Assembly (NCBI GenBank): GCA_030041335.1
Contig: JASHOB010000196.1
Span: 1 to 64,000, forward strand
Source of the DNA: Alphaproteobacteria bacterium
GTDB taxonomy: Bacteria > Pseudomonadota > Alphaproteobacteria > ATCC43930 > CGMCC-115725
Length of the DNA stretch: 64,000 nucleotides
Reading direction: 5' to 3'
Shown: piece after piece, positions 31,658 through 36,891 of the stretch
How the letters are laid out: every line of letters begins with the position of its first letter
How positions within the stretch are numbered: position 1 is the first letter of the stretch
The notes under the pieces: model-generated
The model's database searches: none
The model's input: only the letters and a program-made list of their open reading frames with translations
What the model was told of the DNA's origin: nothing
Made by a program: the position numbers and the translations under genes

Positions 31658-33055
31658 TCAGCCGACGGCGGCGACCCGCTCGAGCTGGGTCTCGTATAGG
31701 CTACAGAGGTAGCTTTCGCGCCACGTCGTTACCGTGTTGTCGCTGACGACATCCATCATATGCCGCCAGCGCATTTGGCGTTCGTCGAGCGACATGCGCA
31801 GGCCGCGATGGATCGCCGAGGCGATATCGTCGGCATCGTAGGGATTGACCAGAAGCGCGGCTTTCAGCTCGTTGGCGGCACCGGCGAAGCGTGACAGCAC
31901 TAAGACGCCCGGATCTTCCGGGTCCTGTGCTGCAACGTATTCCTTGGCGACAAGATTCATGCCGTCACGCAACGGCGTGACTAGCCCGATGCGCGCCGCG
32001 CGGAAAAAACCTGCCAGCACCAGTCGTGAAAAGGCGCGGTTGATGTAGCGCAACGGCGTCCAATCATATTCGGCAAACTTGCCGTTGACGGCCCCGACCG
32101 CCGCTTCGAGGTCGCGGCGCAATGCCTTGTACTCGGCGACGTCGGAACGCGAATGCGGTGCTATCTGCAGAAAGCTGACCTGGTTGCGGTGTTCCGGATG
32201 ATCCGTCAGAAGCGCGTCAATCGCCTCGAAACGGTTGGGAATTCCCTTGCTGTAGTCGAGGCGGTCGACCCCGATGATCAATGCCCGTCCCGAAAGGCTT
32301 TCCTTAAGCCGGGTGGTGTGGCGCGAGCGCGCGGTCCGGCGCGCATACTTGGCGAAGCGTTCAGTGTCGATGCCAATCGGAAATACCGCGGCATTGCCCC
32401 GCCGTTCGCCCAACACAAATGCGCCGCCGCCGTAACAGCGCCCGCGTGTCAGTTCGATTACCGAATCCTGAAAGGCGTGAAGCGACTCTTCGGTCTGGAA
32501 GCCGACGAGATCGTAGGCGGCGAAACTGTGCAGCAACAGTGCATGGCGCGGCAAGGTTTCAAGCAGTTGGCGGGGCGGGAATGGCGTGTGCAGGAAAAAC
32601 CCGATCTGGTTGTTGATGCCGAGCTTACGCAGTTCGTCGCCAAACGGGATCAAGTGATAGTCGTGAACCCAGATGACATCATCGGGCCCAATCATCGGTG
32701 CCAGCAGGGCGGCCATGCGCGCGTTGACCCGAAGATAACCATCGAACGCGGCGCGCGAGAATTTAATCAGACCAATTTGATTGTGGAACAGCGGCCAGAG
32801 CGTGCCATTGGCGTAGCCGATATAATAATCTTGATAATCCTCGGTCTTAAGATCGACCGTTACATAAGTGACATTGGACGATTCCGCGATCCGAGGCTCC
32901 ATTGTCGCGTCGTCCTTGGTTTGGCCGCTCCAGCCAAACCACAGGCCGCCGTAGTGGTCGAGCGCCTCATACATTGCCACGGCCAGCCCGCCGGCGCGCA
33001 CGCCGCCTTCGCTGGGATAGGCCACGCGATTAGAAACGATGATGAGCCGCGACAC
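31658..33055 (-). CDS. otsA: alpha,alpha-trehalose-phosphate synthase (UDP-forming)
   Basis: A 465-residue GT20 enzyme joining UDP-glucose and glucose-6-phosphate to trehalose-6-phosphate. The N-terminal [17 protein letters not shown] with the AGGLAVAM loop, [10 protein letters not shown] (about residues 123-132), [17 protein letters not shown] (about 259-275) and the C-terminal [14 protein letters not shown] are all OtsA hallmarks. GTG at 33055, with GGGAG nine bases before, is the likely start; GTG 33061 and TTG 33088 are alternatives. otsB lies 134 bases upstream on the same strand, so both are probably one operon for osmotic or desiccation stress. Confidence 0.95.
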
Positions 33056-33056
33056 C

Positions 33057-33087
33057 GACACTGTCTCCCATTTGACACTGTCTCCCA
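33057..33087 (-). repeat. 17-base-period direct repeat in the otsA leader
   Basis: The 14-mer GACACTGTCTCCCA occurs at 33057-33070 and exactly again at 33074-33087. On the coding strand each copy carries GGGAG, so the otsA ribosome-binding site is duplicated. The upstream copy serves a start that is out of register with the downstream copy, because 17 is not a multiple of three. It looks like a recent slippage duplication. Confidence 0.7.
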
Positions 33088-33189
33088 ACGTCCCATGCCA
33101 TACTTATGCAATTGGACCGGTCCGCTTCAATCGGGCCGACTAGATTCAATTGGATGAACCAACCAGACCGATCAGGAACCTGCCGTGCC

Positions 33190-33915
33190 TCAGCTATAGT
33201 AACGCGCCAAGCCCGCTATCCATTCCCGCACTGCGGCAGGAGAATCAAGCGAATAGCGAGCGGAGCTTCCCTGCCTTTCACCGACCCGAATGGAAAGCCC
33301 GCCCCGCTGGTTGACGGTTACAAAGCCCGCCTCGTCGGTGCGGTCGTCGCCCACAAATACCGGGACTCGCGTGGCAAAAGACGGCTGGGTCATGAACCAG
33401 GCGACGGCACCGCCCTTGGAAACCGCACGGGGCTTGATGTCGACGGCCATTTTTGACGACAAGGCCTCCAGTTGGGCACAGTCTGCGATCAGGCTGCGCG
33501 TCACCGCTGCGACCTCGTCGGCGAGCGCGGGCGCCGTGCGGTAATGGATCGCCACGCTGTTGCCCTTGTCCTCGATTAAAATACCAGGGTGGCGCGCAGC
33601 GAATTGTCTCAACGGCGCGACGATGGCGCGCAATCCCGGGAGAGGTGGAACCACGAGCGTCTGACCGCCAATCCTTGCCTCGGCGCCGTGCTGTCCCGAT
33701 GCCGGCAGCACGAGCGGATTGAACAAGGCATCGATGCTGCTGAGCGACCGGCCGCTGATGAGTGCGACGGCGCCCAGCGCGCGATCGAGTGCTGCCAAAT
33801 CCTCTCGCAGCGCCGCGGGCACGACCACCGCTTCGGGCGTCGGTGCCAGCTCGATCAGCGTGCCGTCGATATCGAAGAACAACGCCCAATCGGGCCGCGG
33901 TGCCGGCAGGTCCAT
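33190..33915 (-). CDS. otsB: trehalose-6-phosphate phosphatase
   Basis: A 241-residue HAD-superfamily phosphatase completing trehalose synthesis. Motif I is FFDIDGTLIE (about residues 12-21, nucleophile Asp), motif II is ALISGRS (about 50-56), and motifs III/IV include VSKGGAVAWFM and FVGDDRTDEAGF. The start at 33915 is chosen because conserved sequence begins directly after it; the frame extends to 33981 without homology. It lies upstream of otsA on the minus strand. Confidence 0.94.
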   Translation of the reverse strand: MDLPAPRPDWALFFDIDGTLIELAPTPEAVVVPAALREDLAALDRALGAVALISGRSLSSIDALFNPLVLPASGQHGAEARIGGQTLVVPPLPGLRAIVAPLRQFAARHPGILIEDKGNSVAIHYRTAPALADEVAAVTRSLIADCAQLEALSSKMAVDIKPRAVSKGGAVAWFMTQPSFATRVPVFVGDDRTDEAGFVTVNQRGGLSIRVGERQGSSARYSLDSPAAVREWIAGLARYYS

Positions 33916-34300
33916 GGTCCTCGCCTTCCCGAGCAAACGGCGCTCACCGAGAATGCCATGCTGCGAGCGGCAGCATCCCATTCTTGGTCCCTCGCGCCGA
34001 GAAGCGCGAGAAGCCGATGTTGCGCCGTTGCCCGCTCGCCGCCAAGGCAGCCCTTCGCGGTTGCCACGCTCACGTCGGTTGATCGGCCGTCCAGAAAAAA
34101 AATGCCAGAGTGCGACCGCGGGCGGGAGATGGTGGCATGCCCTTGTCGGAGCGCTAGACCAGGTCGCGGGCGAGGCGCTCCAAACTCCGTCTTTGGCCCC
34201 CGTACGCCGACACCCGCGAGCTGACCCCGACGCGCCCTCACGCTATCGCCGTCGACGCCCCGGTCTTGCCGAAAAACGTGGTCCGGACCTATGCTTGCCT
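33916..34300. other. intergenic, no supported gene
   Basis: A 385-base divergent space between otsB and the VOC gene. It contains only short GC-rich open frames without homology. Promoters for both genes should lie here, but I could not define them. No repeat or RNA was recognised. Confidence 0.5.
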
Positions 34301-34720
34301 ATGAGCACCGAACTCAACCATATCATTGTTCCAGCCAAGGATAAGTGGGAGTCCGCGCGATTTCTCGGTCGAATCCTTGGCGTCGAAGCGGGGCCCGAAT
34401 GGGCGCATTTTGTGCCGGTCCGCGTCGGCCGCGTGACCATCGACTTCGACAATGCCAAGGACTTTTCCCACCATCACTGCGCCTTCCTTCTCGGCGAGGC
34501 GGAGTTTGATGCGGCGCTCGACCGCATCAAAAAGGCAGGAATTCGATTTTTCGCCGAGTTCGACCGCACCGGGCCGGGTGAGATCAATCGCAACTATGGC
34601 GGACGAGGTGTCTATTTCGAAGATCCGAGCGGGCACCTGTTCGAACTCATCACCCGGCCCTACGGCGAGGTGCCCGAACAATGGATCGAGGGTAAGGCGG
34701 TACGCGCTACAGGCGGTTGA
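34301..34720 (+). CDS. VOC family (glyoxalase/bleomycin-resistance-like) protein
   Basis: A 139-residue protein with two beta-alpha-beta-beta-beta units. It begins LNHIIVPAKDKWESARFLG with the first-unit His, and ends GVYFEDPSGHLFELITRPYG with the usual C-terminal Glu. These positions commonly bind a divalent metal. The family includes glyoxalases, extradiol dioxygenases and resistance proteins, and the role here is unknown. Its 3' end overlaps the convergent photosensor gene by 14 bases. Confidence 0.9.
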   Translation: MSTELNHIIVPAKDKWESARFLGRILGVEAGPEWAHFVPVRVGRVTIDFDNAKDFSHHHCAFLLGEAEFDAALDRIKKAGIRFFAEFDRTGPGEINRNYGGRGVYFEDPSGHLFELITRPYGEVPEQWIEGKAVRATGG

Positions 34721-35087
34721 TCAGAAACCAGAAATCCTCGCCTGGCGCCTTGAGCATGTGGACGCGCACGATGGGCTCGCTGAAGCGCGTGAACACGTAG
34801 TCGAACTGGCTGTCGACGGTGCCCTTGGCGAGGCCTTCCTTGAACTTGCCGTAAAATTTCGCGGTATTGGTGCATGGCGCGAGATCGCGAAACCAATCGC
34901 GGCCGATAACGTGCTGCTGCCGCATGCCGGAATAGAGGCTCTCGGCGCGATTGTAGGCCAAAACGCGGCCTTCCAAATCGAGGCGAATAATGCCAAAACT
35001 CAGCGAGTCAAACTCGATGGGTGACATGAGGTCGAGCTGCTCAGTGTCACTATCCCCGAAGCGGAACGCCGTGATCGTCGTGTTCAT
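34707..35087 (-). CDS. photoactive yellow protein (PYP) family PAS sensor
   Basis: A 126-residue single PAS domain that aligns almost without gaps to Halorhodospira PYP (125 residues) at a constant offset of three. Cys72 matches the chromophore-linking Cys69 (in DLAPCTNTAKFYGKFKEG), Tyr45 matches Tyr42, and Glu49 matches Glu46, the residues that bind p-coumaric acid and donate the proton. Thr50 is Ser53, Arg52 is Met55, Phe62 is Trp65, and Met100 is probably Ser103. This fits a blue-light photosensor with altered spectrum and recovery. No tyrosine ammonia-lyase or coumaroyl-CoA ligase gene lies in the window, so chromophore supply is unproven. No output domain is fused. Confidence 0.9.
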   Translation of the reverse strand: MNTTITAFRFGDSDTEQLDLMSPIEFDSLSFGIIRLDLEGRVLAYNRAESLYSGMRQQHVIGRDWFRDLAPCTNTAKFYGKFKEGLAKGTVDSQFDYVFTRFSEPIVRVHMLKAPGEDFWFLINRL

Positions 35088-35221
35088 GGCGGCAAGTCTG
35101 CCACGGACTTCTTAATTGTTTATGAATTTTGGGGTCGCCTGAGTCTTTTTGCCTCAAATTTGCTGCAAGCGCTAATCTTGGGTCGGTGCTGAGCCGGCGG
35201 CGCGGGCACAGGGAGGACGCG

Positions 35222-35659
35222 ATGTGGAACGATTTCCGCGCCTTTGTCATGCGCGGCAACGTGGTCGATCTCGCGATCGGCGTGATCATCGGCGCGGCCT
35301 TCGGCCGAATCGTCAGTTCGCTCGTCAGCGATATCATCATGCCGCCGATTGGCCTGATTTTGGGCGAGGTCGATTTTTCCAGCATCTTCATCACCCTATC
35401 GTCCCATCACTACGACACGATCGCGGCGGCAAAGGCGGCAGGTGCGCCGACCATCAATATCGGCGTCTTCGTCAACGCCGTCATCGACTTCATTATCGTC
35501 GCCCTCGTCGTGTTCCTGGTGATGCGGTACGTTAACAAGATGTTACCGAAACCCCCGCCGGCCGAACCGACGACGAAGGACTGTCCCTATTGTATTTCCG
35601 CGATCCCGCTTGCCGCGACCCGCTGCCCGAACTGCACATCGGAACTGCCGGCAAAATAA
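35222..35659 (+). CDS. mscL: large-conductance mechanosensitive channel
   Basis: A 145-residue inner-membrane channel that opens on hypo-osmotic shock. TM1 is VVDLAIGVIIGAAFGRIVSS (about residues 14-33) and TM2 is GVFVNAVIDFIIVALVVFLV (about 81-100). The start at 35222 follows GGGAGGA. The C-terminal tail after the conserved amphipathic helix carries CPYC and CPNC pairs (about residues 120-136), a likely zinc ribbon, absent from E. coli MscL but seen in some alphaproteobacteria. The gene is divergent from the PYP-like gene (134 bases). Confidence 0.95.
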   Translation: MWNDFRAFVMRGNVVDLAIGVIIGAAFGRIVSSLVSDIIMPPIGLILGEVDFSSIFITLSSHHYDTIAAAKAAGAPTINIGVFVNAVIDFIIVALVVFLVMRYVNKMLPKPPPAEPTTKDCPYCISAIPLAATRCPNCTSELPAK

Positions 35660-35901: not shown

Positions 35902-36864
35902 TTAGTCCGTTTTTCGTCCGCGCGCGGCAAGGCGGGCCTCGATTGCGTCCCACACCAGCGTCTCGAGTTTGACGCCGTCGAGCCGGTTGATTTCCTGAAT
36001 GCCCGTGGGCGAGGTGACATTGATCTCGGTGAGAAAGTCGCCGATGACGTCGACGCCGACAAAGACGAGACCCTGCTCCGTCAGGGCGGGGCCGATGGCG
36101 GCACAGATGTCGCGCTCGCGCGTTGTCAGTGTCGTCTTCTCGGCGCGACCGCCGACATGAAGGTTGGCACGGGCCTCGCCCGGTGGCGGAACACGGAGCA
36201 CCGCGCCGACGGGCTTGCCTTCGACCAGGATGATACGTTTGTCGCCGCGTCGAATTTCCGGCAAATAGCGCTGCACGATGATCGGTTCGCGGCTCATGCC
36301 GGTAAACAACTCGAGCAGCGCGTTGAGATTGTCGTCGTCGCTGCGGAGATGGAACACGCCGGCCCCGCCGTTGCCGAACAGCGGCTTTAGAATGAGCTCG
36401 CCGTGCTCGGCACGGAATTCGGCGACCGCCTCGCGATCGCTGGTAATGAGGGTCGGCGGCATCAGCCCGTCGAAATGCGTGGCGAACAGTTTCTCCGGCG
36501 CGTTTCGCACACTGACCGGGTCGTTGACGATCAGCACTTCGTCACGCAGATGCTCGAGAAGATGGGTCGCCGTGATATAGGCCATGTCGAACGGCGGATC
36601 CTGGCGCATCAGGATGACGTCCATCGTCGTGAGGTCGAGATTCTCGGGCGCACCGTATTTGAAATGGTTCCCCTGCTCGCGCTTCACCTGCACCGGGCGC
36701 GCCCTGGCGCGGAGACGGCGGCCGCGCAGCGATAATTCCCGGGGCAGGTAATGGTAGAGAGCGTGGCCGCGCGCCTGCGCCTCCAATTGCAGGGCGAAGG
36801 TGGAATCGCCCTCAATATGGAGGCTCTCCATCGGGTCCATTTGAAAGGCAACCGCGAGACTCAT
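35902..36864 (-). CDS. gshB: glutathione synthetase
   Basis: A 320-residue ATP-grasp ligase adding glycine to gamma-glutamylcysteine. The N-terminal [35 protein letters not shown] and the ATP-grasp loop [13 protein letters not shown] are typical. The C-terminal [21 protein letters not shown] holds metal-binding residues. ATG 36864 has GAGG upstream; a GTG at 36876 is possible. The BON lipoprotein gene ends upstream on the same strand (27 bases away). Confidence 0.95.
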
Positions 36865-36891
36865 GCGATTCCTCACCCGGCCAAAGCCCGA

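Follow-up and report, generated by a model that had tools for sequence, protein, structure and literature searches.

An intact photoactive yellow protein in a genus of non-phototrophic Alphaproteobacteria that lacks the known chromophore genes

The window, by which we mean the whole stretch of 64,000 nucleotides analysed here, carries a gene whose product is, judged by profile, structural and phylogenetic comparison, a genuine photoactive yellow protein (PYP) consisting of one domain. PYPs as a family are well known, and the interest of the case lies in an intact PYP without known chromophore genes: as far as homology searches can tell, dedicated chromophore genes of the known kinds are absent throughout the genome and throughout the genus. 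The gene is under strong purifying selection, and a functional role of its product as a blue-light sensor in vivo is plausible.

Identity of the protein and its chromophore pocket

The open reading frame runs on the minus strand from an ATG at 35087 to 34707 and comprises 126 codons, with the coding signature of a GC3 of 0.80 and a GC2 of 0.39. The gene and three codons of its chromophore pocket are as follows.

34707..35087, minus strand: PYP gene, 126 amino acids, single PAS/PYP domain (open reading frame, profile, PDB matches and coding signature)
34872..34874, minus strand: codon (TGC) of Cys72, the equivalent of the chromophore-binding Cys69 (present in each of the four genus members)
34941..34943, minus strand: codon of Glu49, the equivalent of Glu46 (alignments)
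34953..34955, minus strand: codon of Tyr45, the equivalent of Tyr42 (alignments)

The NCBIfam profile TIGR02373 (photo_yellow) matches the protein with 110 bits (E 6e-32), while the generic Pfam PAS model reaches 29 bits only. The former score lies below the strict, curated equivalog cut-off of 143 bits, and the protein is not filed under that equivalog. This model was built on four seed sequences and recovers approximately 20% of PYP homologues, and thus it does not define the PYP family, which is delimited instead by the conserved Cys69 together with PYP-specific homology (PMC9664959). A phmmer search retrieved 33 matches from the PDB, every one of them a PYP, a PYP-derived FAST/nanoFAST tag or the PYP domain of Ppr (best E 3.2e-28). 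The PYP of Halorhodospira halophila (PDB 2PHY/1NWZ), likewise a single domain of about 125 residues, is the top match in both sequence and fold, and aligns with the window protein at 43% identity. An AlphaFold model built on three sequences of the genus has a modest confidence (pLDDT 65) and was used solely for the fold class; its top 39 PDB matches are PYP, Ppr or FAST (query TM-score up to 0.76), and heme-PAS domains come next at about 0.58. The protein therefore resembles PYPs more closely than it does other PAS domains, and the profile, PDB and fold matches rule out a generic PAS domain by chance. Viral and mobile origins of the gene were also rejected, as the viral contigs hold no relative and the plasmid relatives are all less than 60% identical. 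The first-pass annotation of this DNA, which had been made from the letters alone, proposed a PYP homologue without an output domain; both parts are supported.

Aligned with H. halophila PYP, Tyr42, Glu46 and Cys69 fall in register with Tyr45, Glu49 and Cys72, the cysteine standing within Ala70-Pro71-Cys72 (Ala67-Pro68-Cys69), and Ile31, Phe92, Phe96 and Trp119 correspond to Ile34, Phe95, Phe99 and Trp120. Tyr45, Glu49 and Cys72 are invariant across all four genus members. The constant numbering offset of three described in the first-pass annotation holds over residues 18-105, but it is 4 at the N-terminus and drops to 2 and then 1 near the C-terminus after two one-residue gaps. Of the 17 residues for which a survey gives a conservation above 70% among PYPs (PMC12826048), sixteen are kept, the exception being Phe62, which is Trp65. 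The window protein also departs from H. halophila PYP in the pocket at Val66, which is Leu69, and further at Thr50, Arg52 and Met100, which are Ser53, Met55 and Ser103. Both the retention of Tyr45, Glu49 and Cys72, which leaves the pocket intact, and the last three substitutions had been read correctly from the sequence beforehand. Mutagenesis work has shown that loss of Met100 slows the recovery of PYP, and a slow recovery would be expected here since the Met100 equivalent is Ser. Loss of Arg52 is ordinary, since the family consensus at this position is Leu52 (PMC12826048), and the protein is not special in having Met or Leu there. Ser at position 50 is shared with the PYP domain of R. centenum Ppr, and because two studied Ser50 PYPs absorb at 432-434 nm (PMC12826048), a blue-shifted maximum at about 430-435 nm is a fair prediction by analogy.

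Conservation, selection and lineage

Each of the four available genomes of the genus has one copy of the PYP gene. The three congeneric orthologues are 82, 81, and 67% identical to the window protein and equal to it in length within one residue, and the pocket is conserved across orthologues of 64–82% identity. Pairwise dN/dS among the three closest genus members is 0.04–0.11, one pair having near-saturated synonymous sites. The conserved pocket and these ratios together indicate that the gene is in use and that its thiol pocket is maintained. A decaying remnant of a former photoreceptor system would agree with the absence of dedicated chromophore genes, but it is rejected by the dN/dS values, and the full-length reading frames in four genomes also speak against it, so that we regard it as scarcely credible.

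Outside the genus, the other 35 genomes of the family yielded one real but distant PYP, of clade C type and 35% identity, and one generic PAS match. In broader samples a PYP was found in 9 of 385 alphaproteobacterial genomes and in 5 of 399 genomes of the phylum, the window genome being counted in each. The view of the first-pass annotation that PYPs are scarce outside photosynthetic bacteria did not survive this comparison, as two surveys have catalogued 789 and 984 homologues, many of them from non-phototrophs (PMC9664959, PMC12826048). The host itself belongs with the latter: no photosynthetic reaction centre is encoded in the window genome, and phototroph status was rejected.

Among 25 PYPs placed in a tree sampled outside clade B (Salinibacter, Leptospira), those of the genus branch as a lineage of their own (support 94/95), with clade C set apart from it beyond a long branch (support 100/100); a position near clade B is compatible with this sampling. 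Clade C PYPs, known from Burkholderiales and Rhizobium and represented within the same family by genome G023, share with the window protein the pocket cysteine and the PAS/PYP fold, but they do not conserve Phe92, Phe96 and Trp119 (PMC9664959), and their genes often stand beside GGDEF/EAL genes. The window protein keeps these three residues and has lost Met100, which clade C retains, and together with the branching this places it outside clade C. It differs also from the Ppr/Ppd-type PYP domains of R. centenum and Methylobacterium, which are fused to phytochrome and to kinase or GGDEF modules whereas the window PYP is free-standing, and from some Ppr-like PYPs (genomes G541 and G664) that are without the cysteine it keeps as Cys72. 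By tree and alignment it is thus a PYP of a divergent lineage which, among the genomes sampled, occurs in a single non-phototrophic genus of Alphaproteobacteria. The clade C type PYP of G023 (L018:8128-8502, minus strand; motif APCTNN) adjoins a PAS-GGDEF protein, and that genome is without a PYP-type ligase and without an aromatic ammonia-lyase.

Chromophore supply

Unlike that of H. halophila, the window pyp has no adjacent pCL or TAL, and its host is a non-phototroph. The window genome (5.17 Mb in 262 contigs) is 100% complete, and the three congener genomes are 80, 61 and 70% complete. Profile PF00221, which comprises the tyrosine, histidine and phenylalanine ammonia-lyases (TAL, HAL and PAL), has no match at E <= 1e-3 in any of these four genomes; the same search is positive in seven other PYP-bearing genomes and in 5 of 14 control genomes. 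The PYP-type 4-coumarate:CoA ligase (TIGR02372) is likewise absent from the four, where scores reach at most 48 bits. It is found at 265–323 bits, beside pyp or within 2 kb of it, in 7 of the 13 other PYP-bearing genomes, and it lies near pyp in all five genomes whose PYP passes the TIGR02373 cut-off (classical PYP). The search for TAL and 4-coumarate:CoA ligase genes that the first-pass annotation had proposed has thus been carried out at the level of genome and genus, and neither component of the classical system (pyp with pCL and TAL) accompanies the window gene. That annotation had named as refuting its reading either an absence of chromophore genes together with no absorbance after reconstitution, or a placement outside the PYP clade. 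The absence of the genes is what we observe; a placement outside the clade is contradicted by the PDB matches, the tree and the fold matches.

The best TIGR02372 match in the window genome, a partial one of 48 bits, was considered as the missing ligase and rejected, being the benzoate-CoA ligase of a box operon and not a 4-coumarate ligase. This operon for aerobic benzoate degradation (box; benzoyl-CoA epoxidation) is located at L019 (contig C126 of genome G000) and holds, besides that ligase, a BoxC of 872 bits and a neighbouring BoxB-like reading frame. No hydroxycinnamoyl-CoA hydratase/lyase over cut-off was found in the window genome; canonical p-coumarate catabolism was therefore rejected. 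Both results weigh against the p-coumarate reading preferred below. Generic acyl-CoA ligases are numerous in the genome.

In the same search several other PYP-bearing genomes also lack the TIGR02372 ligase, namely the clade C genome G023, the fusion-protein genomes G057 and G188, and the Ppr-type genomes G541, G563 and G664. Among them, the PYPs of G541 and G664 are those without the cysteine, and those of G057 and G188 have altered pockets. In the latter two, which are small-genome alphaproteobacteria (approximately 1.3–1.6 Mb), the PYP domain lies near the C-terminus of a long reading frame (L026, L027) and has Gln in place of Glu46 and Ile in place of Pro68; these searches found no chromophore genes there.

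One explanation for the missing genes is that p-coumarate is made or attached by unrecognised enzymes, or that the genes are missing from the assembly only. The fragmentation of the assembly and the broad, poorly predicted specificity of CoA ligases (PMC12826048) give it some room, but the estimated completeness, the same absence in three congeners and the coverage of TAL, HAL and PAL alike by PF00221 make it improbable. We know of no other established bacterial route from tyrosine to p-coumarate.

Gene neighbourhood and proposed function

The surroundings of the PYP gene in the window are the following.

31658-33981, minus strand: otsA and otsB, trehalose synthesis
34301..34720, plus strand: glyoxalase/VOC-superfamily gene, convergent with the PYP gene and overlapping its 3' end by 14 bp
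35109..35126, no strand: imperfect dyad TTCTTAA-N4-TTATGAA, 22-39 bp upstream of the PYP start (four-species alignment)
35222..35659, plus strand: mscL, divergent from PYP, with a C-terminal CxxC-N12-CxxC zinc-ribbon-like tail
35902..36876, minus strand: gshB (glutathione synthetase), adjoining mscL in all four genus members

Beyond gshB follow genes for a BON protein and rsmI on the minus strand. In the alignment of four species the dyad is the most conserved stretch of the region between PYP and mscL, changing in the most distant member, and it occurs once in the window against 0.04 expected; we regard it as a candidate promoter or operator for PYP.

The divergent mscL neighbour, which the first-pass annotation had pointed out, recurs in all four genus genomes. 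The three congeners have PYP, mscL and gshB in the same order and orientation, which rejects an artefact of the window or contig, while the other flank of PYP is occupied there by yifB, with or without the glyoxalase gene; the latter also adjoins PYP in one further member of the genus. In other genera of the family no gshB, yifB or PYP lies within about 1.5 kb of the mscL copies, and mscL and PYP come together only in the window genus among the family genomes compared. It could be supposed that PYP and MscL act together in a light-gated or light-regulated osmotic release, hence their divergent arrangement, and the constancy of this pair beside a variable flank, found nowhere else in the family, would suit such a partnership. 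The genus members are however close relatives in which gshB, as well as BON and rsmI where the contigs reach, are also fixed, so that shared ancestry suffices, and the two genes lie on opposite strands and form no operon. We consider the partnership very improbable; the adjacency is a genus-level arrangement that offers weak evidence of function, and among the papers listed none was relevant to a PYP-mscL link. The trehalose genes otsA and otsB are close to mscL in the window genome only, yifB taking their place in the congeners, and clustering of osmotic genes is therefore not conserved. In the window MscL the cysteine tail replaces the usual C-terminal helix (LLxEIRDLLK); both tail types occur in the family, the cysteine tail in 17 of 25 motif-recovered mscL reading frames (loci L059-L088).

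The main rival to a photoreceptor is a PYP that has kept its fold and pocket but now serves another ligand, or senses redox state or electrophiles through its thiol, and that does not act as a photoreceptor in the cell. It would explain the genus-wide lack of known chromophore genes despite strong purifying selection, as well as the changes in the pocket at Phe62 (to Trp) and at Val66 (to Leu or Ile); glutathione synthetase and glyoxalase genes are nearby, and redox sensing has already been proposed for some methylobacterial Ppr-PYPs (PMC9664959). Against this, Tyr45, Glu49, Ala-Pro-Cys72, Phe99 and Trp120 are all retained, whereas the redox-shifted methylobacterial PYPs lost Cys69 and changed Tyr42, and what is conserved of the neighbourhood is only the order of the genes. 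On this evidence we hold such a shift to be unlikely.

The reading we prefer, at about an even chance, is a real PYP that relies on p-coumarate from the surroundings, is charged through a generic acyl-CoA ligase and passes a blue-light signal to a separate partner; in it we infer the chromophore uptake, the charging, the spectrum and the partner. The p-coumarate would not be made by the cell but taken up, for example from plant material, as has been proposed from operons for TAL-less bacteria (PMC12826048), and would be activated by one of the many general acyl-CoA ligases, so that Cys72 of the apoprotein could carry p-coumarate, or a close hydroxycinnamate, as a thioester. Blue light (approximately 430-435 nm) would then isomerise the chromophore, Glu49 would give up its proton, and the PYP, partly unfolded in a long-lived state, would signal to the partner protein. 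This output is not MCP-based phototaxis, since no MCPsignal domain or chemoreceptor is encoded in the window genome. The net effect would be a PYP that reports light only when hydroxycinnamate is present.

The PYP is intact and under selection, and for its genus the usual sources of the chromophore can be excluded across the genome, beyond the operon, which makes the question of how a PYP is loaded without TAL, raised by a 2025 survey (PMC12826048), directly testable in one lineage. Tentatively, and with rather more doubt than belief, such a PYP may depend permanently on environmental, plant-derived hydroxycinnamate and so serve as a coincidence detector of blue light and plant material, or else it may carry a chromophore other than p-coumarate drawn from ordinary metabolism.
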